Positions 1,026 to 45,250 of a stretch of DNA of 64,000 bases are shown here, piece after piece. The position numbers and the translations under genes are program-made. Position 1 is the stretch's first letter. Each line of letters begins with the position of its first letter. The notes under the pieces are model-generated. The model made no database searches and had not been told where the DNA came from. It saw nothing but the letters and a program-made list of their open reading frames with translations. Source of the DNA: Branchiostoma floridae (lineage: Eukaryota; Chordata; Leptocardii; Amphioxiformes; Branchiostomatidae); the NCBI RefSeq assembly GCF_000003815.2, contig NC_049979.1:3563520-3627519 (forward strand), given 5' to 3'.

Positions 1026-4000
1026 ATGAATACCACCGCTTGGATGTCTTCATCGTCGGCACAAGCCTCGCAGGGCTTCATTGTCAGCCACGTTCCGCGG
1101 ACGACGCCTTACGACGACGTCGAACCGACAGCCGTCAACGTCACGACGTCGTACGACGTAGTCCCGTCAGCTGAATACTTCAACATCGACGTCAACGTCA
1201 CGTTCTTCAACAACGTCTCGTCGAACGTCAGCGTCACGACGCTGGGCCCGCCTCCGCCGAACACGTGCCCGCCCGGGTTCTTCTGCCGAGAGTACTGGGA
1301 CCTCGCGCAGATCCTCGGCGTGCAGATTTTCTTCATCATCTTCTACGTCACTATTATTCTACTGGCCGTGGTGGGGAACGCCATGGTGCTGTGGACAGTC
1401 TGGAGAAACAAGAAGCTGCGAACGGTGACGAACTATTTCATCATGAACCTGGCCGCGACGGACTTGGTGGTGGGGTTGTTCGTGGTGTTGTTTAAGCTGC
1501 TGGAGTTCGCCACGCCCGTGGCAGTGGACTTCTTTAACGTGCCCCTGTGCACCGCGCTGAACTTTCTCCAACCCGTCTTCGTGGGGGCCAGCATGCTCAC
1601 GCTGGTGGCCGTGTCGTTTGAAAGGTATGTTTGTGCTCCTCTTCTTCATGATGTTTTCTTTTCTTGGTGATTTGTTTCTTTCTACGTGCTAGCGTAGAGA
1701 TGAATTCGCATTTTTCCTACAGAGTGGAACTCGTTGGAACAAAGTACTGTAGGGGCATCCTCGCTGTATATCTTTGAACAACTCTTACAACTAGATGGGA
1801 AAATGTTAAGCGTGACAGGCCTAGTTTTCAGTGTAATATAACCAGCTGCTGTCGTGCCAGGTGCATGCGAGGCTGGTGTGTTACGCTGAGCCCGAATGAC
1901 ATATACTGTCATACAGACGTTCGCTTATCGGAGTTAGCTCTCTGGTCTTAGAGTTGACAAGAGCGTCAATTATTTGGCAGGATGAAGTCTGACCGATAGG
2001 TCAGGCTTTAGAGCTATTAAAACTGTCCTATAGGTCGAGTTTTAGACAAAAAAAACAAGCATCGCGTCTGATGCTATGATAATTTCTTCACTTTGGCCGT
2101 TTAAGTAATACTTTCTAGTGGCCTTTTTGTCTTCAAGTTCAGACTGATTGGCGGCAATGCTGGTAAAATGGCAGCGAAAATAGTACTTTATCAGCAAAAA
2201 CGGTGATATTCGAACCCCCTGCTATGGACGTTAACGGTCTATTTACCATTAGCTCTACAGGTCAGACAAAGAAAAGAATGTTTCTATTTGTTTAGCGCGT
2301 GTTTTACTAGAAGTATCTCTAACTAAAGAGAGACTGAAAGGAGCGGCTCTTGTTTCCACTGTTCTTCATGAATAGAAACGCTTAACTAATATAAAGACCT
2401 CCCAGCGAACCATGTGTTTAATTTGGTTACAATTGCTTTTGCTACTTTTTGCCCCGACTTGCGACCTGAGCCAAAGCCTGTCTGCATGTCACGGTGCCCA
2501 GGTCTCATTCTTTCTTGTATGAAGTTGTATCCTTCAAGATTTGTGGGAAGACACACATACATGGATAGACAACGGCGGCCCAAATATTTGTAAGTACATG
2601 AAGTGACCGTGATCACCATTCTGGTTGGTTGGTTGGTTGGTTGGTTGGTTGGTTGGTTAGTGGTTGGTCGGTTGGTTGGCTGATGATACGTCATACATGA
2701 CCGTAATTACATATTCGATTCACGAGAATGCAGAGATATCACAATATAGCCGACAGTATTCGTGGTACTGAATGAAATTGAAAACTCCCGTCGTTGCTTC
2801 ATTCAATGTCCCCTCCCCCAGTTTAACTTGCTTGCATGGCAGATTCTCAGCTCTACCTCTAGCTACGACAGAGGCTTTGATGTCTTCATGTTTTGGAGAC
2901 TGCAACATCCCCCTGACCCAAGGAGAAATTCCCCTTGCCCCTGACTTATGCTACCCCAGCCACGGGAAAAGCGGGCAGACAGAAAGCGCTGGCAGTGAGA
3001 GATTAACGATGAAGGCTAGTACATCATGATTAAAAGATATCCATGTACATAATCACAGATACTCAAACACATTTCAGGTAGCATCGATTAGAGATTAGAT
3101 TTCGTCAATAACAGAGAGAGAGAGAGAGAGAGAATGGTTTATTTGTATCACAGCCAACTTGCGGCTCGAAAGCCGAATTATCAGGCTTGTTTACATTGTT
3201 CAACGTTACATAATTGCTATTCACAAAAACATTGTAACATTACATTAGACGTATAGCATGAATATTATAATGAATAAATATACGATTACAACGTCTAAAA
3301 TGCGGATGCGAGTACAATGGTCGAGTACAATGGCTAAAAGTCAAATTGAAATAGCATTAAAACTATTAAAAGTCTGATCGTAGCAAAACTGTTTGACTTG
3401 TCTTACAAAGTTAGTTAAAAACAGATTGTCCTGGTGGAGTATATACATAGAATCTACAGTTCGTTCAATGATTTGATCATTGCCGGTATAGCGCTGGTTA
3501 AGTAGCGGTTAGTCCCGGTAGGTTGTTGGTATCGCGCAGAGTTGCGGAGTTGCCTGCCATGTTGTTGTCCACGGGTAGGGGGCAGCCATGTGGAGAAGCG
3601 AGGAGACCTTTCAACTCTCAAGGCAAAGTCAGTACAGAGTTTCTGTCTACGTGTTGAAAGGCGCTCAAGGCCGATGTGCTGGAGAGCTGCCGTGTAAGAA
3701 ACGAACTGACGCCCCATCATCAACCTGCAGGCCCTTCGCTGCACCCGCTCTAAGGCGGCAGACTGTCTCTGAGTGAGTGCTATAGCCCAGCATGGAGCGG
3801 CGTACTCGAGTAATGGTCTTATATACCCGCAGTATATGGTGTTCAGGTCTGCGATCGGCACCCCGGAACGTCGCAACCTGCTGATGACGACCAGCCTTTT
3901 GCTACTTTTGGACACCATGACATCCACCTGGTCATCCCATTTCAGGTTAGAGCGGATGTGGAGTCCAAGCAACCTAGCCTGGGTGGTGGTTTTAAGTGTC

Positions 4001-7000
4001 TGTCCTGCAAGAGTCAGCACTGGAGGTTGTATGGGGGCGCGCACGAAAGAGAAGTGCATGGCCATGCATTTCTTGGGGTTGAGTAGCATGTGGTTTTCCG
4101 TAGCCCAGTTGTCAAGGTGGTTCAGATCACGTTGAAGCGATGACGGGGTAGAGATAAGCCTGATCTCTCCCAGATTGAAGTCATCTACGTATTTCCAGTG
4201 TGAGTTCTCGGTGACCGGTTTAACATCATTGATCATCGCCAGAAATACAAGAGGACCCATCAAGGTGCCCTGGGCTATACCGCACGTCAGGCTTTCCCGA
4301 TGTGACAATGCTCCCTGGTAACGTACGCACTGTCGGCGATCTGAGAGAAAACTGCACACCCAAGGAATTACAGATGGTCTTGCTCCGAGGCTTATCAGCT
4401 TAGCTATAGCGGTTGCTATAACACTAAACGAGATCCAACAGGTTCACAACATGAAGATTTTATGATGACGTTAAAAAATTGTGAACAAGAAAACTCCATA
4501 ATCGTCTGAATGAATCATTTCATAGCTACGGCCGCGTGGCGCGTTGGTACACCCGATCCCTCGATCTCGGAAGTTAAGCAACGCGACGGTCCGGACAGTA
4601 CTTGGATGGGAGACCAACCAAGGACGTCCGGATTGCTGTAGCCTCACGAAGCTTTCCACGAAATCGTCTTCCGGGAGGGACGTAAAACGGGGGTCCCGTG
4701 CTCGAGGAGGTGCCTCGACCACGTTAATCAGCCTCATTACTCATAATGGGTACCTACTGGCTGGCAAAATACACCTGGTGATTATTCAACAGCATGTCTC
4801 ACCTGCTAGCCCTTCATACAGAGTCCAGGACAGTGGTACCAGTGTTGTCCTGGTTCAAAGGCATCTATTCACGTGCCCCAATATGTGTCCCAAGTTCACG
4901 TGCTGTTCTTGTGCCCCAATGTCACGTGTTGTTGTTGCTGTTGTTGTTACCTCAGGTTCAATGCCATCTGACACCCTCTGGACACCAAGTTCACGTGTTT
5001 TGTTGTTCCCCTCAGGTTCAATGCCATCTGCCGCCCTCTGGACACCAAGTTCACCAGTAAAAAGCGGATCGTCGCCATGTTGGTTGCCGTGTGGGTCGTT
5101 CCCATGGTGCTTTGCTCCCTCCAGCTGATCCCAGCCGCGTTCTTCCGGATGCGCCTGAGCAGTGAGATGGGAACCATCAGCCGGGCCCGCTGTCTGGATG
5201 AGTAAGTCATGACTACATCGCTTCTCTTCTCTTTTCTTTTCATCTCTTCTTTTCCGAGTCTCTTCTTTTCCTCTCTTCTCCTCTTCTCTCGTCTTCTTCT
5301 CTCTCCTCTCTTCTGTTCTCTTATCCTCTCTTCACTTCACCTCATCTCATCTATCCCGTAACAGCAGCCTGGTAGTATATAGTTCGCTCCTATGTTCGCT
5401 TCTGCTACACAGAGAAACGGCTGTGTATATATATATAGTGTATGATAAACGTCAGGGCGAACTACTACAGTATCCGGATGGTACCCAGGCTAGCAGCACA
5501 GAGGATCTGGCAACCATCTCGGCTTTGTTTTTTTATGTTTCACTATAATAAGATTAGCTCAATCAAGGAGCTTTTATCAGGAGGAGAGAGTATGGAGCTG
5601 ATAAAAGCTCCTTGGCTCAATGAGCTAAAGGGCATCTCAATAAACTCAACTCAATAGTGTCTTGCCTTCCCATTACATGAGGGTCTGCATGCCTTTTTCC
5701 GTTAAGCGTTACGAGCCATTTTAATTCACCGTTAATCGTTACCGACCCGCTCTAATTCAACGTTAATCGTTATCGGTATATTCTTCGTGAAGCGTTATTG
5801 GTCGTTTTATTTCAACGTTAATCGTTATTTGTTATCCCAAATTTACCGTTAACCGTTACCAAGAAATTCTTCGTAACCCGTTATACTATACAAAGGAAGT
5901 CAAATGCCAGATAGAACCCCTGAAAATGCAGGAAATGGCGTTTCAAAGGGTCCAGATTTCAAAATTTCTCCGAGCCTCCCGGCCTTCGGCTCTGAACATG
6001 GTAAAATACGTTGCAGAAGCGTCTCCCTCAAAACTTTATCATTCATACAAATTTCAGTGTCAAACATAGCTAAGTTTCGGGCAAAAAGTTCTCATAGAAT
6101 GCAGAAAATAAGTTTTTTCCCGGACCTCCATCCAATGCGACGGCTTGCGCCTTTGGCGTTCACGGCGACATGGCGATCGCGAAAATATGTTTAACATAGG
6201 GGTGTGGGTTTTCACACAAAAACAACCTTTCTCTCTAATAAGATGTCATTTGATTTAGCTTCGTCTTACGGCAAAATCTGTCCTTCAAAATGCAGTAAAT
6301 GGCATTTCAGACGGTCCAGATTTTAAAATTCTCCCGGACTTATATTGCAACACCTCGTGCCTTCCGAGCTCGAATTGGTAAAATTATGTCGGGGCTCTGG
6401 GGGTGGAGGCCAAAGCTACGAGTATAATTTGATGAAAATATAATGTCAAAATCAACCTAGCTTAGTCGGTAGGCAAAATTTGCCGAAAATGCAGGAAATA
6501 GCATTTAAGAGGGTCTTGATTTTAAAATCCCCCCCCCCTGGAATGCGTCGCGCCTTCGGCGCTCCATGTGCTGAAACAATAGTTCAATCCACCCCCCCCC
6601 CTAAAAACTTTGCTGCCGCCGTCTCTGTGGCGGGCCGGGAGCTCTGCCTCTGTCAATTTACAGATGTCATGGACATTGCCCCTGTCATTCCTCCGGGTTC
6701 TGGGCACCTTTTGCTTCTCACAATGTATTTTCACCCATTGATATAGCTACTCTAGCGTTGTATGAATAGGAATGCACGTCAATATTAATGTTATGCTTTG
6801 TAACTCATTCTGAATTTACCGTTAAGCGTTTCCGAGCCTCCTGAATTTACCGTTAAGCGTTACCTGGCCTCCTGAATTCACCGTTAAGCGTTACCAAGAC
6901 CCCCCCATGCAGACCCTCTTACATTTTGTATATCGCAGGGGAGTTGCACAGTATTCAACCAGAACAAGGAGGCGTCTCAACTGACAAAACTCCCACAAAC

Positions 7001-10000
7001 AACTCTCCCTACTTTTCACAATAAATTATTTTGTGTTTTCACTTCCAGCATCCCCAACACCATCGGGGACCCGACCTGGTACCACGTGACGCTGTTCCTG
7101 GTACTGTACGCCCTCCCCCTGCTGTTCATCAGCGTGGTGTGCGTGCGGATCGTGCTGAGGCTTCGCGCCATGGAGACGCCAGGCAGTCAGCTGGTCAACG
7201 ACAGGGACATGGCCAGGAAACGGGACAAGAACAAGAAGATGGTGAGGCTTTTGGCAACGCCTAAGAGGCGAAGCCGTTAGTGTGGTACTGCGGTTGATAT
7301 TCTAGAAATTCCACGCATGCTAATTAACTCATTTGCATCGAGTTCGTCTTACCGTTGTTACCTATTGGATTGTCTTCATCTAATTTGCATATCGATTCTT
7401 AGTTATCATATAAAACATCTGCTCTCCAACAAGATCTCTTTGGTGGGTCTTCAACCCTTGAAAGCTATATATAAACTAGTTGATTTCTAAAGGGGTCAAC
7501 CATACATGTAAACAAGACAAAAAAAACGTGTTAAATCTAATCAATGTGATGAGTCATTCAGAGCAAGAAAGAATATGTATAAATCTTTCGACTGGTCCAG
7601 TTTCCTTGCCCATCATTCATGCATTTATCTTCCCGATGAATTGCAAACCCTTCGCTGTACGTGCTAGGCTCCGCGTCTACCAAAAGGAAACAAAAAAGCA
7701 ATAAAAACGTCGCTTACTTCAGTAGAACAGTGGAGGTATCCTATAATCGTACTGACAGGCTAACTTTCACACAATCATTCCATGGAGACTGTTTCGAGAA
7801 TGCTAACTTAACGTAAAGGTTACTCAAGCAACGGTATATCCTTTTCCAAAATGCATTCAGTTGGTTGAGTAAATGTTGTCTTGCATGTCTTATTTCCTGG
7901 ATGTCCAACTTTCATCGACGACTAAAGCATCACGTGAACTTGAACTCAAGAACCCATTGAGAGTCTTAAGAAATCTGAGTCTATTTCAAGCATGCTGACT
8001 AAAACCCACTTTCTTTGAATTTACGATATGTTTTCAGTTTTCGTCCGTGTCAGCTTCTCATGGGAGTGCTAGCCCATTGTTACCGCGTATGTTTTGTTTG
8101 CGATACGAATGTCTGTACATAACAAATGGCGCTATAAACCGATTGGTGAAACACCGAGGATTACATCAGCCTACTGTTCAGGCCAGGGTTCTCGTAAATT
8201 AGACAGAAATAGTGATTGTAGAACAACAAAGGATTCGTTCCGATCTAAATTTGCCAATATCCGCTCCTATTCAGGGTAGGGACCTTTGACACTTGGCACC
8301 GGCCGGCCCAAACACGTAAATATTGGGTGTAGCTAGGGGCGCGACGCGTCGTAAATTCGGATTTAGTGAGCACCGGGCTAGATAACATTGTGTGTGGGGT
8401 TCGACAGGATGCTTGTGAATTATAAAGGGCTCTTGGTAACATACTGGCAGCTGATAACTCCGCAATTGCGATGTTTGCTCTTTCTCCTGCAAGTGAAAAC
8501 CATCCCTATGATAGTGTCGTTAGGTCCCTAGTAGTACGTGGAAAGGTACAAGCTGCAACGGGCATGCGTTTTTCAAGCGTTTCATCCAAAATCGTACCAG
8601 TACAAAAGAAACGACGTCTTTTCGAAGTGTAGAGATTATAGTTGCTACCACCAGGTACAATAGAAACAAACGATCTCATCTCTTGGCAATGTGTGCCCTA
8701 TCAACATGCGAAAATGATAATCTGAAAGAAAAACAATAACAAACATAGGGACTCCAAGTCTGGAAATCATACGAGTATTACGGTCCGAGTTCATTGACGA
8801 AGTTTTGATGCATGTGAAAATGAGTGGAGAACAGATAGATGCTGCAACGCCGCCGCATATTCCCCTTTTGTAAATGGTCGTGTTTTGTTAATCAATCATA
8901 ATAACAAATAGGGACAAAGTAGCACAACACTCAAGTTGTGCACCTTATTTTGACTGTTATTATTCATTTAACATAAATACTTGACAGCAATATGAATATC
9001 TACAATCATAATAATATCATAAAAATAAAGTTAGTGTCCGTCAACACACCCCACCCACATACCGAGTTATCAATTCAATGCTGATAAGCCCTTAGTCCAA
9101 CAGAGCCACAAATGTGACGTGGACGATTGTCAAAGTGTGTGCTGTTATACATTCTGTAAATGACGCCGATTGCCTTTGGAATCGTGTGCTGAACGCCGAT
9201 CTGTGGATCTGTCGCTCATGGGGTTTATAATAGTGTTAGAGTTAGTGATAGCCATTAGTTGCTGCTGCTATTGCCATGTTTCGGACCAGTTCCAAATAAA
9301 ACTAAGGGTTTTGCGGTCACCTTCTGAGAGACGCCTTTCTCTGCTAGGGATTATAATTAGGTCAGACGTAGAATTAGGTAACAACTGTTGTTTACCGTAA
9401 CGTTACCTCAATGGTATTACAGGTGACGCGAATGGTGATTGCCGTACCGTGGCGGCTGCCTTCCCCGTGTGCTGGACTCCATTCTCTGTTAGGGTCAGGC
9501 TATTAAAGAGTTGTGTAACATACTGTTGTAACTGTAACGTTAATGGTTTTGTTCCTCCCCCCACGACAGGTGACGCGAATGGTGATCGCCGTGGCGGCTG
9601 CCTTCGCCGTGTGCTGGACGCCGTTCTACGTCATGAACATGTCTGCGCTGAACCCGGACACAAACTTCATCGCCAACAGTAACCTGTTCTTCTGGCACAC
9701 GCTCATGTACGGCCTGGGCTTCCTCAACTCCGCCATCAACCCGGTCATCTACATCGTCATGAGCGACAAGTTCCGCCGCGGCTTCTACACCGTCTTCTGC
9801 TGCGTGCCCTGCCGGAAGCTGTGCAGGTTCTCCGCGGAGATGGCCAACTCCAAGATGCTCTCCCACAGCAGCACCTCCGCGCCCAATCAGTCCCTCTCAA
9901 CCTCGCCCAGGAGAAACCTGGCGGTGGTCCACAAAAACAGCCCCAAACTCGTGAAGAGAGTTTCGTTCGCGAAAGACCTAACCCTGACCACGAAGGTGAA

Positions 10001-10649
10001 GGTATACGGTAATCGCCGTATGGTAGACACTGATGATCAGATAAAGGAGGCTGATGAGGATAAGGCCAGAGCGAGTCCGGGAGTGAAGCGGAAGACCACC
10101 TGGAGGAACCCCGCCAGGGAGAGGAGGTGGCTGAAACTGAGCTGGAGAAAAATCACAAAGAGAGTGAGCAGCCGGAGCAACGCCGACTCCGGAGTGTACA
10201 GCATCAGCGGAGAACCTCCCGACATTGCCACCCACGAAGACCTGTGCAATGACCTGCCGCCAGAAGACGGCAACCAGAAAACTGGCGCGAACGCGTGCCC
10301 TGAGTCAGCAGATGCCGACGATGTTAGTGCAATCCACAGTGACCATGCAATCGCAAACGTAGACATCCACATAGACATTGGCGGCAACGACAACCTGTCC
10401 TATAGCCACGCACCAGAAGGAACTACGCAATCCCTTCACCAGGAAGATGTCACGATACCGGAAGGGTTTGAGATCGCGCCGGGTTACGACCAGTACTCCT
10501 CCGAGGAAGAGGACACGGTGCCGGACTTCAGCGACATCCCGGACTTCCAGGAGTACTGCTACACGCTGGCGCCAGCCCTGCCCAAGAAACCGCTGAAGAG
10601 AGGGTTCCGGAGAACCTCCACCTCTCTGACAAGCGCCGTGGAGGTTTAG
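1026..10649 (+). CDS. Rhodopsin-class (class A) neuropeptide-type G-protein-coupled receptor, four exons
   Basis: Exons 1026-1624, 5016-5201, 7049-7241 and 9570-10649 join in frame (685 aa) with consensus donors (GTATGT, GTAAGT, GTGAGG) and AG acceptors. The N-terminus is long (about 98 residues) with NXS/T sites at N2, N38, N57, N63 and N67. TM1 is about 100-125 with GN at 117-118; TM2 carries LAATD (D146); C175 before TM3 is the usual disulfide cysteine. The DRY position is E199-R200-F201, and intron 1 splits the Arg codon in phase 2, as in many peptide receptors. CWTP is at 341-344 and NPVIY at 383-387. A Cys cluster after TM7 (CCVPC..LC) suggests palmitoylation. The C-tail is unusually long (about 295 aa), Ser/Thr-rich and acidic toward the end. 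TM6 and its flanks resemble QRFP/NPFF/orexin/CCK-type receptors. That it is class A is secure; the ligand and subfamily are not. Confidence 0.9.
1625..3111. other. GPCR intron 1, first part
   Basis: No exon is visible. A (GGTT)n microsatellite runs about 2619-2656. The rest looks like unique or old decayed intron sequence. Confidence 0.4.
2619..2656. repeat. (GGTT)n microsatellite
   Basis: Nine or so uninterrupted GGTT units in GPCR intron 1. Confidence 0.85.
3112..4440 (-). mobile_element. 5'-truncated CR1/L2-like non-LTR retrotransposon (reverse transcriptase remnant)
   Basis: On the minus strand an open frame (about 4430 down to 3454) encodes the C-terminal half of a non-LTR reverse transcriptase. 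It has a QGTLMGPL motif, the catalytic YVDD box, LNPKKC, LLGLHI, and a thumb region ending LEYAAPCW. The reading extends upstream of the first Met (AKLISLGARPS..WVCSFL), so the Met is not a real start. The fingers domain with the first catalytic Asp is missing, as is any endonuclease domain, so the copy is dead. After the stop come a 3' UTR with a small hairpin (ggctttcgagcc) and a (CT)n end at 3112-3134, which is (GA)n on the plus strand. It lies antisense in intron 1 of the receptor. Class is by motif only; CR1/L2/Rex1 cannot be separated here. Confidence 0.85.
4525..4740 (+). mobile_element. 5S-rRNA-derived SINE-like element
   Basis: Positions 4525-4644 follow the 5S rRNA consensus in order: gctacggcc start, gatctcggaag, taagca, the pol III C-box region tggatgggagacc and the end gctgtagcct. 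The match is diverged in the middle, so it is not a normal 5S gene. It continues into a non-5S body (cttccgggagggacgtaaaa, ggtcccgtg, gcctcgaccacgtta, cagcctcattac) of the sort expected for the core of a 5S-headed (SINE3-type) retroposon. A similar tail is found at 61725-61757, which supports a dispersed family. Confidence 0.75.
4956..4995 (+). repeat. Decayed tandem copy of the start of GPCR exon 2, with its acceptor
   Basis: ctcag plus about 40 nt matching the true exon 2 start (acceptor ending at 5015) is repeated 60 nt upstream. It has a change that creates an in-frame stop (tgccgc to tgacac). Short pieces of the preceding intron (ccaagttcacgtg) are also repeated at about 4889. It is non-functional as an exon. 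Confidence 0.85.
5219..5345. repeat. CT-rich low-complexity tract
   Basis: An imperfect (TTCTC)n polypyrimidine run just after GPCR exon 2. Confidence 0.8.
5553..5628. repeat. Small hairpin element (MITE-like)
   Basis: The arms tagctcaatcaaggagctt and its near reverse complement (aagctccttggctcaatgagc) surround an approximately 20-nt loop. It lies in GPCR intron 2. Confidence 0.65.
5699..6910. repeat. Two blocks of CGTTAAGCGTTACC repeats flanking a diverged low-copy repeat
   Basis: At 5699-5885 and 6813-6900 short units of the type accgttaagcgttaccg recur every 30-40 nt. Between them, units beginning atgcaggaaatrgcrttt and followed by gggtccagattt recur at about 5928, 6289 and 6487. The same unit is found at 39509 and 39680, so it is a dispersed family. 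No coding potential is visible. It occupies most of GPCR intron 2. Confidence 0.65.
7242..9380. other. GPCR intron 3, no gene seen
   Basis: No exon is recognisable. A decayed relative of the inverted-repeat element at 21326-21583 (ttactcaagcaa, ccaaaatgca, cctggatgtc) lies at about 7745-7915. Confidence 0.4.
9423..9490 (+). repeat. Decayed tandem copy of the start of GPCR exon 4, with its acceptor
   Basis: An acceptor (attacag) followed by gtgacgcgaatggtgattgc copies the true exon 4 start at 9570, 147 nt downstream. A 5-nt insertion (accgt) breaks the frame and the match fades near 9490. Intron sequence before both copies (actgttg..gtaacgtta) is duplicated too. Confidence 0.85.
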
Positions 10650-12842: not shown

Positions 12843-26994
<14,152 letters not shown>

Positions 26995-40536: not shown

Positions 40537-42121
40537 TACCGTACATCGCACCGGGGATTTTTGAAGGCATGAAGAAGAGTAACAGGGCGGGTCGAGTTAT
40601 AAGTCGTAACCTAGCCTGGATACCAGACTTTTTCGAGGATCTACACAAGAGAAATCCTCGGCTCCATGGCCAACATGCCCCAAGAAAAGTCAGGCTTCTC
40701 TTCGTTTAAGGGTCTGATAACACGATAGATATTTCTGAGATCTGAGATCTGACTAGACGTCAATTCTGAAGACAAGATGGAAATTTCCTACAACAGTACA
40801 AGTCGTCCCATGCAAAATAAAGGTCCTCTCAGTGCCATGTGCCAACATCCCTTAGTTCCTTCTTGTAAACATCTTTGAAACGCAGTTGTGGTCGTCCATT
40901 CTCTAAGAAGGCTGCCTATGATATGAATAATGAAAAACAATCCAATTGCAAAGTTAAAACTTTATTAGAATAATTGACTATAAATGAAAGGTGACAACGA
41001 AGACAATACTTTTTGCTTCATTTTCGCTATTGGTTTGAATGCATTAATTTACATATTCATTAAGTAAGACTAGTCTAAAACTGAACTCTCTGAACCAGCA
41101 CTTACCTTCCCACCAAACGAATAACAAGTTCAATGTTGAAATTTTATTGCAAACGACGGTGGATCGAAGCTCTCGCGAGCCTTCACCGGCCTTTCCCCTC
41201 GGTGAAAATTACTGTATTGACGTCAAGCAGACTGGTCTACTTACTTTAAGTCTCCTGGGTAGCATTTGGATTGGTCTGTCACAAAACTAGTGAGGTTACT
41301 GTTTTCAGTGTGCCGTCCACTCTACCCATGCCCTAGGTATTTTCCACAGCTCAGAAATTAAAATTGATCCAAATGTTGGCTTCTTATAGCCAGCGTCACG
41401 ATTCAAGCGAATGTCGACCGAATTTGTAAATCGGTCGGACCTCGCCGAAATTCAAAATTTCCCGAACGTCGACTGTATTAGTTGCTGAAAATCTGCCCCG
41501 TTACAATTTGCAGTGCGACCAAAGTGCAAGCTGCACCTATCCTGTTCAGCTAATAGCGTCATTGTTACATGTATCAGCTTATAGACAACAGGAAGAACTT
41601 ACCTGGATGTCCCGAATTTTCGACTTAACAAGTTATAAGCAAATTTGCACCAATCACCTAGACAATTACAGTTATTTTGTTTATTTAGGGCCTGCTGGGA
41701 AAACAAAATGAACATTGGATTTTTTTTTTACTTACGCCCTACAGACTTGTTTCGCCAATTATGTTCAGAAACGATCGCGATCCATTTGCTAGACGAATTT
41801 TCTGCTACGGAGGACATGTACAGCGCGTTTAGACTGACCAGTTTAGACAGGGCGGTGTCACTCTTTTGGCAATAGCTCTGTAAATAACTTATGAGTTGAT
41901 CTCACACTTTCTGTGGCCATACTAACATGACATGATTTGCAGTGGGGCTAGTTATATATCATGGCTTAACAATGTGTTCTAATTTGAGGTTCATGTACTG
42001 GATGCTCGGGTTGGTTTGAAATCGCTGGGAGTACCGCGGGGTTTCGCCCTTTACTGTAGCGCGTAAACTGCCCGTAACGGCTATGATAAAAAGGGCAAAG
42101 CGAGTCGAGAATGATCATCTG
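40537..42121. other. Upstream region of the peptide-precursor gene
   Basis: No exon is recognised. It contains solitary hairpin-element ends (tagcctggataccag near 40613). Confidence 0.35.
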
Positions 42122-42258
42122 TACTCTTCAAGCAGCAGAGGTTGAATCGCGCAGACATAGTAGTAGTCAGAAAAATTACACGGGGAGCGCCTGTGTAATT
42201 TTAACCGACTACGGTAGTACTACTATATCTCCGCGACTCAACCTCTGCTTGTAGAGTA
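42122..42258. mobile_element. Hairpin MITE (TACTC..CAAGCAGAGG family), copy 1
   Basis: tactcttcaagcagcagagg pairs with cctctgcttgtagagta, and tagtagtag/actac pair inside. It ends 73 bp before the precursor ATG. The ends match those of 59111-59316. Confidence 0.75.
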
Positions 42259-42331
42259 GATCATCTGTTCAACCTGAAAACTAATTATGTTGATAACTCT
42301 ATGTCATCGATTCTGCAGCTCAAGTGGAAAG

Positions 42332-44043
42332 ATGCAGCTGTTCTTTACTGCAAGCCTTTTTGTCATGCTGGGCCTTCTGGCTTATGGGAGCTCTGGGGCT
42401 CCGACGGCTCTTCGATCCTCTGGGAACGATGACAATGCGGACGATGGAGAGCTGCTTTCTCAACTGAGAACCATAATGGAGAAAGAACAATCTTATGAAG
42501 GTATGAAAACCTATCATTTTTGTTCAAATACACATACGAGTATGCCTTATGTTTATTAATTTTTTATTATTAGCCAAGTCATTTTGTAGCTTTTCAAAAG
42601 TTAATGCAAATGTTTTCGACAGGCAATGGAGACGAGGACAATGCCGACCCCGGGGATGTGTATGCCGCGTCTCAGACAGAGAAGCGAGGTTCCAAGAACA
42701 AGTTTGGCAAAGGAGGGAAAATAGTGGGGAATATAATTGGGGGTTTGCTCAATGGAGTTCTGGGGGGCGCCATGGGAGGATCTGAGAAGAAAAGACAAAC
42801 TTATGGAGGTAAAACTTTCCGTTTTTTGGTAGTACACGTACTGTTCAATATGTTAGTTAAAATTAATTGTTTCTTCTTTTGTACCAATATTTAATCAGTG
42901 TTACTGGCGAAAAACAACGGATGTTATTTGAAATGTCTGACCGTTGTTGGTGAATGCAAATACATATAGAAAAATTGTGTATGATCCAAGTCGTATTCTT
43001 GACTTTTGGAAGACATTTACAATGTACATTGTACGAGTTGCCCAAAGTAATGGTGCGTGTGATTGGTAAAGTTCTGGGGGGGCAAACTGATTGAAGGATC
43101 TGAGGAGAAAAGACAAAGTTATGAAGATAAAACTTATTTTTGGAACTATATATTCGTACTGTTAAGAAGCATTAAGGTTAAGGCCTTGTGTTAACGTATC
43201 TTTTACTCATTTTGCCGGTCTTGCAGGCATAGCAATGGCGTCACTTGTGATACGTATTGTAATTGTGCACTTTTTTTATACACAGCCAATGGAGACGAGG
43301 ACGACGTCGAGGGTCCTGATGTGGAGGACTTGGAAGATCTGCTGTTAGGGCTGGAGCTGGTCGAGGAGCTCAATTCATTGGAGGAGGAAGACTCCGATGG
43401 AGGTAAAACCTACTAAAACATGATTTAAAAAGGATTCTTTGTTTGTTTAGCCACGTAATCTACTGGCCTTCCAATGACTGTGCAATGTACAATGTAGCTT
43501 ACGCATTGTGCAAATGATTTACACGATGGAAACGAGGCCAATGGCGGTGCAAGCCCTGGTGGGGGGGGGGGGGGGGGTGCATTAAGCGCCACAGTTGAAC
43601 AAGCTTGGTTTGTTGGGGAAATTTGGAGGGAAAAGAAAAAGAGCCAATAAAAGGTTTTGGAAAAGTGGCAGTTGGGGGTCTTCTGCCAGTACTGGTGGAC
43701 AAGCTCATCCCAATCCAGAAGAAAAAACAATCTGATTTAGATACAGTCTGTATGTGTTTTTAAAGCCAAGTATAGATTTAAAACACAAAGGAGAATGCTA
43801 TATAGGTTCAGGTATCTTTAAAAAATTCAAACATTTTGTTACTTTTCAATTTCGGTCTGATGTCGCTCACCTATTGTACAAATGTTTGACACAGGCAATG
43901 GAGACGAGGACAGTGCCGACCTTGTGGGGGAGAATGCCGCCTCTCAGACAGAGAAGCGCGGGTTTTTGAATAAGTTGAAAAAAGGAGGGAAAATAGGGGG
44001 CAAAATACTCGGGGGTGTGCTAGATGGAATTCTGGGACGCTAG
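42332..44043 (+). CDS. Secreted precursor of two cationic glycine-rich antimicrobial-like peptides
   Basis: Exons 42332-42500, 42623-42808, 43286-43402 and 43895-44043 join in phase 1 at every intron (206 aa). The start is M at 42332, which begins a clean signal peptide (residues 1 to about 23, LFVMLGLLAYGSSGA). Exons 2 and 4 are homologous modules. Each has an acidic spacer (GNGDED.AD), a conserved SQTEKRG dibasic cleavage site, then a basic Gly-rich amphipathic segment. Peptide 1 is residues 79-111 (four Lys, repeated GG/GxxxG, closed by KKR at 112-114). Peptide 2 is residues 180-205/206 (five Lys, one Asp), ending ILGR: trimming Arg would leave a Gly amide donor. Exon 3 is an acidic spacer alone (residues 119-157). 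This layout is that of a multi-peptide AMP prohormone processed in the secretory pathway. I recognise no family; a neuropeptide precursor is the main alternative. Confidence 0.8.
43052..43135 (+). pseudogene. Decayed copy of peptide-precursor exon 2 (3' part)
   Basis: gttctgggggg, ggatctgaggagaaaagaca, agttatgaagataaaact matches the end of exon 2 and its donor. The donor G-GT has become G-AT and the frame is broken by a G-run. Confidence 0.8.
43510..43735 (+). pseudogene. Decayed peptide module between exons 3 and 4
   Basis: caaatgatttacacgatgga, acgaggccaatggc matches the acceptor and start of exon 4/2, with the acceptor lost (acag to acga). A poly-G run follows, then ttgaacaagcttggtttgtt..gggaaatttggaggg, which in one frame recalls the LNKL..GGK peptide core. 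It has in-frame stops in other frames and no intact splice sites. Confidence 0.6.
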
Positions 44044-44138
44044 TAGCCTGGGTACCTTCATGGTCGGTTAACACCCCCCCCCCCCCCCATTGGAGTCTGG
44101 TAAACTGCCTACTAGGAAGGGTACCAAGGCTACTACAC
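44041..44138. mobile_element. Hairpin element of the TAGCCTGGGTACC family
   Basis: tagtagcctgggtacc pairs with gggtaccaaggctacta around a C-run. Relatives are at 53613-53720 and 59905-60004. It begins at the stop codon of the peptide precursor and so probably lies in its 3' UTR. Confidence 0.65.
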
Positions 44139-44285
44139 CAGTAACTAGGGTATAAACAGATTTTATTCTTTTGTGTCGATGCGGCACTGGATTTTTTTTT
44201 AGTATGGTTAGCTGAAGTCTTATAGGCTGAATTTGCTCGAACCTTTCTTGTTTTATCATCAATTCGTTGCTTTTTTTGTTTATTG

Positions 44286-44713
44286 TAGGGGTGGGTACAA
44301 TACCATTGGTCTTGTTGGACCGGTCCGGAAAAACCGGACCTGAAACAAAAAGCATTGGACCGGATTTTGGACCGATTAGAGAATGAATAGATTATCCCGG
44401 AAAGTTGTCACGTGTTTTGGAGCTTACCGATTCAACAAAATAACAAGAGCTAGGAAGAGGAAAGTTGACAGTCATTTTCACCAACTTTTTACAGTCAAAC
44501 TTGGTATAAGCTAACAGAGGCATTAGTGTTGTTAACAAGAACGGATAGAATTTCAAAACGTTAGAAGTCGGGTACTCATCAAACAGATTCCTTTGTAGCG
44601 AAATTGACCATCTTTTTGAGTATTACTCATTCACAAAACTTAGTTTTCATGGACAATTAGGTTCGGACCTGAACCTGGTCTTCTTGTCCCTAAATTACTT
44701 GTACCAATACCCA
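44286..44713. mobile_element. Possible hAT-like MITE (GGGGTGGGTA family)
   Basis: Starts taggggtgggtacaatacc and ends ttgtaccaatacccaca, with ggaccggtccgg and ggacctgaa motifs inside. The same motifs are at 22622 and 63890. Confidence 0.6.
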
Positions 44714-44849
44714 CATTTAGTGTATTGGGATGGGTTTCCAACACGTATATGTATGTATGTAGTACATTCAAGAAAAATATTTTAACCGACCCACTGGAGA
44801 TCCTAGGGGTGTGTTCAGGCAACCCTTGAGTCTTTGTGTATTTGGACCT

Positions 44850-45250
44850 TGTGATGAGAAACGAGTCTCTTAACATCTGCATCTTGTTTAGCATTGGTAT
44901 ATCATCTCCAGTGCATTTATTGAAATTGTGCCATCTCACACGATGAGCACATAGTCTGATAAATAAGTCAGACCTCTTGATGAGAAAACAGTTGTTTAAC
45001 ATCTGCATATTGCTCATCATTGGTATGTCATCTTCAGTGCATTTATGGGAATTGTCCCAATACAAAGATTGAGTTTGAAATGTGTGCATTAGTTATCTGG
45101 GAACGATTAAGCATATAGGAAACGAAACGTGCAAGTAAGGACCTTGTGATGACAAAACAACTGCATAACATATTGTTTAGCATCGGTATGTCATCTTCGA
45201 TGCTTTTACAGATGTTGGATCATCACAAAGATTAAGTTTTTAGGTTGTGC
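44850..45250. repeat. Three diverged tandem units of about 130 bp
   Basis: Units share gaccttgtgatgaraaaac, acatctgcatnttgttnagc, attggtatgtcatcttcagtg and tcacaaagattaagttt. A 149-codon open frame across them (minus strand) repeats with the DNA and looks non-coding. Confidence 0.7.

Follow-up and report, generated by a model that had tools for sequence, protein, structure and literature searches.

A four-exon lancelet gene with the layout of a precursor for two cationic amphipathic peptides

A gene of four exons, found in a 64-kb window (the whole stretch of lancelet DNA that was analysed), on balance probably encodes a secreted precursor of two linear, cationic, amphipathic-helical, membrane-active antimicrobial peptides. 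Judged by its likeness to known precursors, the antimicrobial reading is the best fit because the predicted product combines an acidic pro-region, cationic amphipathic helices and an amidation signal. The sequence of the precursor is new, while its kind is already known. That the gene grew through duplication of symmetric phase-1 exon modules is well supported. In addition to what a sequence-only reading of the same DNA had described, we observed that introns 2 and 3 contain dead module relics, that exon 1 carries a copy of the module and that a segment junction lies at the stop codon.

Gene structure and predicted peptides

The precursor gene extends from an ATG at 42332 to a TAG at 44041-44043 and encodes 206 amino acids, none of them cysteine. 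Its exons measure 169, 186, 117 and 149 nt. All three introns run from GT to AG and all three are in phase 1 (Table 1), confirming the four-exon, all-phase-1 gene that the sequence-only reading had placed here. The hydrophobic N-terminus was called a signal peptide by eye. Each peptide is preceded by SQTEKR, with the cut predicted between this site and the following Gly; peptide 1 is then followed by KKR, and peptide 2 ends in Gly-Arg directly before the stop. Both of these C-terminal features had been reported earlier and are present in the sequence, and the residue limits that had been given for the two peptides proved exact. Along the precursor, convertase-type sites, which are not specific to neuropeptides, occur in the order EKR, KKR and EKR, followed by the Gly-Arg end.

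Table 1. Positions of the gene, its predicted peptides and neighbouring features in the window
Feature	Position	Strand	Description
Exon 1	42332..42500	+	Start codon, hydrophobic signal-like N-terminus, acidic pro-region with diverged module start and end
Exon 2	42623..42808	+	Acidic spacer, SQTEKR site, peptide 1, closing KKR
Predicted mature peptide 1	42688..42786	+	Residues 79-111, 33 aa, net charge +3
Dispersed repeat (part)	42878..42945	+	Within intron 2; at least 40 further genomic occurrences
Relic A	43048..43129	+	Dead module in intron 2, limited to the module end; every frame interrupted; splice donor mutated from GT to AT
Exon 3	43286..43402	+	Acidic-only module; start and end common to other modules
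Relic B	43519..43743	+	Dead module in intron 3, reaching from module start to end; every frame interrupted; both splice sites (acceptor and donor) lost; contains a poly-G run
Exon 4	43895..44043	+	Acidic spacer, SQTEKR site, peptide 2, terminal Gly-Arg, stop
Predicted mature peptide 2	43960..44040	+	Residues 180-206, 27 aa; 25 aa plus a putative C-terminal amide if Gly-Arg is processed
Degenerate inverted-repeat element	44044..44132	.	Adjoins the stop; first three bases form a second in-frame TAG
Downstream segment	44044..46781	.	Matched by two patchily collinear copies on the minus strand of contig C4, at about 6.634 and 6.552 Mb

Charge pattern and helical character

Charge is strongly partitioned along the precursor. 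It amounts to -5 in the pro-region, -4 in the spacer up to SQTEKR, +3 in peptide 1, -22 over the 65 aa after KKR through EKR (exon 3 together with the exon 4 spacer) and +5 in peptide 2 including its terminal Arg. Exon 3 by itself carries -18 over 39 aa, in agreement with its earlier description as an acid-only module. Such segregation exceeds that of shuffled sequences (P 0.0008). An acidic pro-region is thus followed by a cationic amphipathic-helical peptide, as in the precursors of linear amphipathic-helical antimicrobial peptides (AMPs).

Helical amphipathicity was assessed by the hydrophobic moment. Over the full length, the moment at 100 degrees was higher than in shuffles for peptide 1 (P 0.016) and peptide 2 (P 0.0014), and for both it was maximal at 100 degrees on a 5-degree grid; exon 3 displayed no excess (P 0.71). 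Windows of 18 residues gave P 0.013 and 0.012 for peptides 1 and 2, windows of 11 residues a weaker signal (P 0.08 and 0.04). The hydrophobic faces of both peptides point in the same direction (139 versus 140 degrees), and the polar faces are turned from them by about 170 degrees. Face orientation and charge are retained despite 10 differences among 25 aligned residues. Single-sequence AlphaFold2 models placed a helix at residues 29-49 of the exon 2 module (mean pLDDT 64.7) and at residues 7-46 of the exon 4 module (mean pLDDT 77.7). Since the latter helix also covers the acidic spacer, the models lend mild support to helical peptides. GxxxG motifs were no more frequent than expected from composition, as judged by shuffles (P 0.07 and 0.17), and with counts within chance, a glycine zipper or pairing of the two peptides was dropped as evidence and figures only in the bolder reading given below.

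The amphipathic sequence speaks for membrane affinity and says nothing of the target. The product could be secreted and either membrane-active or structural, with no part in immunity (a deterrent, say, or a component of egg coat or mucus), and Gly-rich peptides are also found in structural secretions. Yet the precursor pairs an acidic pro-region with cationic mature peptides and carries convertase sites and an amidation signal, which together make up the usual AMP layout. A non-immune product is, in our view, very unlikely.

Database searches and copy number

The assembly holding the gene comprises 513 Mb in 431 contigs. Translated searches of this genome at E up to 10, which scored candidates from a loose first look only (six for the precursor, two for peptide 2, one for exon 1), revealed no second copy of the whole precursor, peptide 2 or exon 1. 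A 20-base module pattern, allowing up to two mismatches, matched the genome five times. Three matches were exact and all lie inside the precursor gene; the other two, located elsewhere, carry two mismatches, and a control gave as many. The precursor gene appears to be single-copy in the 513-Mb genome. Pattern-matching stretches were also collected from viral (188) and prokaryote contigs (59); none of either set was confirmed as related.

No Pfam family was assigned to the 206-aa precursor at E up to 10, a piece of it giving one sub-threshold match (E 1.1), and NCBIfam yielded sub-threshold matches only. In the PDB, the precursor had one chance match (E 1.2) and nothing below E 1, and the peptides had none. 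Rfam gave no match between 38000 and 48000. A text search of a library of papers for five peptide strings found none of them, and no similar lancelet peptide appeared among the literature matches listed or in excerpts from a review on the AMPs of marine invertebrates (PMC10608444). The earlier statement that no named family contains these sequences therefore stands for the Pfam, NCBIfam, PDB and literature text searches run.

The dibasic sites and the Gly-Arg end would also suit an ordinary prohormone, that is, a neuropeptide or peptide-hormone precursor in which both peptides are ligands of G protein-coupled receptors (GPCRs). About 32 kb upstream, the same strand carries open frames of a rhodopsin-type GPCR, a proximity that is probably due to chance. 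However, neither Pfam nor NCBIfam gave a family match above cut-off and the PDB gave none below E 1. Peptide 1 would end in Glu and peptide 2 in an amide, leaving no common C-terminal motif, and the divergence at 10 of 25 residues with faces and charge preserved would suit membrane action better than receptor recognition. We therefore regard a neuropeptide precursor as quite unlikely.

Exon modules and dead relics

Exons 2 and 4 share 80% identity across 158 nt, of which 16 belong to the preceding intron. Across the locus, the module start and the module end each occur five times as direct repeats. The exon 1 tail aligned with exon 2 at a score reached by none of 500 shuffles, with exon 4 at a score reached by 1/500 and with exon 3 by 12/500; exon 1 carries a weaker, diverged copy of the module, represented by its start and end. 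The middle of exon 3 displayed no detectable kinship with the cationic peptides of exons 2 and 4 (341/500 and 492/500 shuffles reached the score). That it arose as an acid-converted cationic peptide is unsupported, this part aligning with exons 2 and 4 no better than shuffles do.

Two further copies reside in introns. Relic A matches exon 2 with a score of 80 (0/500 shuffles) and exon 4 at a score reached by 46/500 shuffles, and relic B matches exon 2 with a score of 75 (0/500). All six internal splice sites of the open modules are intact, versus none of the three readable relic sites (Fisher P 0.012, with counts entered by hand after the relics had been recognised). Intron 2 also holds part of a dispersed repeat, for which 40 of the 41 matches listed lie elsewhere in the genome, covering only query bases 527-615.

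The sequence-only reading had proposed a lancelet defence peptide family made by exon duplication. Duplication holds, with more copies than were seen at that time, whereas the word family says too much for this genome, in which a single gene was found. In the scenario that we favour, a phase-1 exon would have been duplicated in tandem, and the copies would then have diverged, turned acidic-only or died. Because living and dead module copies stand side by side, birth, divergence and death of peptide exons could be traced across lancelet species and individuals.

Coding potential and selection

Comparison of exons 2 and 4 gave 31 nucleotide differences in 144 and 17 residue differences in 48, with neither a stop nor a frameshift; the homology of the two modules suggested earlier is thereby confirmed, the frame being intact in both. 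The coding frame is open in exons 2 and 4, and the other two frames of exon 4 contain stops. For this pair, dN was 0.21 and dS 0.41 (dN/dS about 0.52), an excess of silent changes that is suggestive only (Fisher P 0.083). Neutral simulations produced an open frame with equally few residue changes in 5.4% of cases. Among open simulations, amphipathicity and charge were kept by chance in 2.7% when exon 2 was evolved towards exon 4 and in 16.7% in the opposite direction. None of the selection tests run reaches P 0.01, and the evidence for selection is marginal, at best suggestive. Open frames alone are weak evidence as well, because random frames are frequently open in the 64-kb window (7.8% at 186 nt, 12.2% at 147 nt and 18.3% at 117 nt). 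It is the joint picture of in-phase exons, kept splice sites and repeated modules that persuades us of a coding gene; no single test does so.

A rearrangement junction at the stop codon

Directly 3' of the stop, TAGCCTGGGTACC forms one terminus of an inverted-repeat element, which ends at 44132. When a 20-base pattern from the terminus of this element was searched for across the genome, allowing up to one mismatch, 88 matches were obtained, one of them being the far end of the gene-side copy; the reversed control had no match in the same genome. The element, lying beside the exon 4 stop codon, marks where homology to two segments of contig C4 sets in. These two segments share about 88% identity with one another across 3.2 kb, their longest common stretch, and both have the element at the matching place. 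In the gene-side copy, a separate high-copy repeat occupies roughly 44285-44725.

Left of the element, neither exon 4 nor exon 2 matched the C4 segments above shuffles; exons 1-2 taken together gave a borderline score with one of the two segments (4/200 shuffles). Since collinearity with C4 starts at the element and exon 4 fails to match C4, exon 4 ends at a segment junction. The stop codon stands at the start of the C4 homology, and the Gly-Arg amidation end therefore sits at the rearrangement junction. Exon 4 is shorter than exon 2, which continues to KKR where exon 4 stops. A rearrangement likely cut exon 4 short, leaving the Gly-Arg end. Simple insertion of the element into exon 4 was considered. 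Of seven other loci examined, two (L021 and L022) carry element copies that start at TAGCCTGGG and are flanked by 9-bp target duplications. At exon 4, the flanks agree at five of nine positions, which together with the collinearity to 46781 weakens an insertion; a junction fits better.

A 39-bp stretch of intron 2 (42980-43018) matches both C4 segments, perhaps as a repeat common to them. A scan for frames with an acidic-KR-cationic order, covering about 19.8 kb around each C4 segment, found none there, and a related peptide gene was rejected; the two matches of the scan were exons 2 and 4 of the precursor gene. In each of the C4 segments, which lie about 82 kb apart (L031 and L038 at about 6.634 Mb, L039 and L040 at about 6.552 Mb), a conserved acidic open frame, DADENDG.AHKDKDADERD, was observed left of the element on the strand opposite to the collinear match.

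No AATAAA or ATTAAA was found in the 1.2 kb from the stop to 45274, and a TATAAA is located at 44151. The junction bears on the possibility that the gene has recently been lost, being a former modular precursor whose introns and 3' end are decaying. The two dead modules, the segment junction at the stop, the shortened exon 4, the absence of a canonical poly-A signal within 1.2 kb and the weak selection signal would all be expected of such a gene. On the other hand, the four exons are open, in phase and bounded by canonical splice sites, and decay is limited to the intronic relics, as the splice-site counts (6/6 versus 0/3) indicate. We judge loss of function to be unlikely.

Neighbourhood of the gene in the window

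Two open frames on the plus strand, 999-1667 and 9519-10646, match 7tm_1, the former in its first part (E 3.4e-19) and the latter in its last (E 3.3e-8), and probably belong to one rhodopsin-type peptide GPCR. In the PDB, the first of them is nearest to NPFF receptor 2 and to the NPY2 and orexin receptors. Between the two frames, on the minus strand, lies a reverse transcriptase fragment (3457-4443; RVT_1, E 2.3e-8). At 23173-24393, long open frames are present on both strands (406 aa on the minus and 272 aa on the plus strand), the minus frame being rich in Ser, Pro, Lys and Arg repeats and without a Pfam match. Just upstream of the precursor gene, 42112-42271 forms a MITE-like inverted repeat whose 54-nt arms are separated by 52 nt. 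Downstream of it, at 44844-45250, three copies of a unit are spaced 126 to 169 nt, and similar repeats occur in the C4 segments.

Proposed processing and action

If the precursor acts as an antimicrobial one, its signal peptide would route it into the secretory path and its acidic stretches would hold the cationic helices neutral. Furin or a prohormone convertase would cleave after SQTEKR and KKR, a carboxypeptidase would remove the basic residues, and PAM would amidate peptide 2 at Leu. The freed peptides would fold on bacterial membranes, most likely permeabilising microbes. Against the antimicrobial reading count the charge of peptide 1, which is only +3, and the end of the gene at a rearrangement junction. 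A search of 40-46 kb of the window for the NF-kB consensus GGGRNNYYCC gave no match, which counts against it too, as does the lack of AATAAA and ATTAAA between the stop and 45274.

A bolder version of the antimicrobial reading, which we think rather improbable, is that one transcript supplies a fixed 1:1 complementary pair, a longer Gly-rich peptide 1 and a shorter amidated peptide 2, that act together, with exon 3 as a built-in acidic antidote and the amidated end created by the rearrangement at the end of exon 4.

Comparison with known systems

Published lancelet AMPs include defensins, mBjAMP1 and a ribosomal protein, and in the portions of these reports consulted none resembles the precursor (PMC4683396, PMC12373286, PMC10608444). 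Big defensins and arthropod-like defensins are likewise lancelet antimicrobial genes, according to the parts of the reports at hand (PMC10608444, PMC12373286). Lancelet defensins are cysteine-stabilised, however, and the precursor has no cysteine in 206 aa. Closer in layout is mBjAMP1 of Branchiostoma japonicum, as far as it is described in the text available, also a lancelet precursor with a signal, an anionic region, a dibasic site and an amphipathic peptide; its 21-residue peptide has two cysteines, in contrast to the cysteine-free precursor described here (PMC4683396). BLASTP of the precursor against the published mBjAMP1 21-mer, at E up to 100, returned no alignment. If the antimicrobial reading is correct, a cysteine-free multi-peptide antimicrobial gene would join the handful described in lancelets.

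Among vertebrates, precursors of the Frog Skin Active Peptide superfamily, which served as our comparison for the AMP layout, share a signal, an acidic spacer, a basic cleavage site and a C-terminal peptide with the lancelet precursor, in the passages seen (PMC7070584). Unlike them, the lancelet precursor has an acid-only module between two different peptides. The conserved signal and propeptide of this superfamily constitute a Pfam family, and the 206-aa precursor matched no Pfam family. Within frog peptides, plasticins are described, in the sections consulted, as Gly-rich with several GxxxG motifs, and PGLa as amidated, its GxxxG motif being required for synergy with magainin 2 (PMC5640672). 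Like PGLa and magainin 2, the lancelet peptides would be two different amphipathic helices from one animal, to go by the same sections (PMC5640672); unlike in that pair, their GxxxG count is within chance and their synergy is hypothetical.

The closest parallel is found in pipid frogs, whose AMP precursors, in the extracts available, have tandem exons and an acidic spacer: hymenochirin transcripts contain two to six tandem repeats and magainin genes tandem exons (PMC3899252, PMC3731216). Within the same extracts, the magainin and hymenochirin precursors share with the lancelet one a signal peptide, an acidic spacer, peptide repeats ascribed to duplicated exons and cleavage at basic residues (PMC3899252, PMC3731216). 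Duplication of peptide modules as exons, the mark of the pipid tandem-exon genes, is seen in the precursor gene. There are also differences, as far as those extracts tell. The lancelet module is one exon, whereas the pipid repeat consists of exons 2 and 3, and pipid repeats are of low or near-zero divergence, whereas the lancelet peptides differ at 10 of 25 residues. In the profile search bearing on kinship with the CCK-related pipid precursors, the lancelet precursor matched no Pfam family at E up to 10, and membership of a frog family is not supported. By analogy, the best fit is that the precursor works like a frog tandem-exon AMP precursor; if this is real, the solution of the clawed frogs, exon duplication of a peptide module, would recur in an apparently unrelated lancelet gene.
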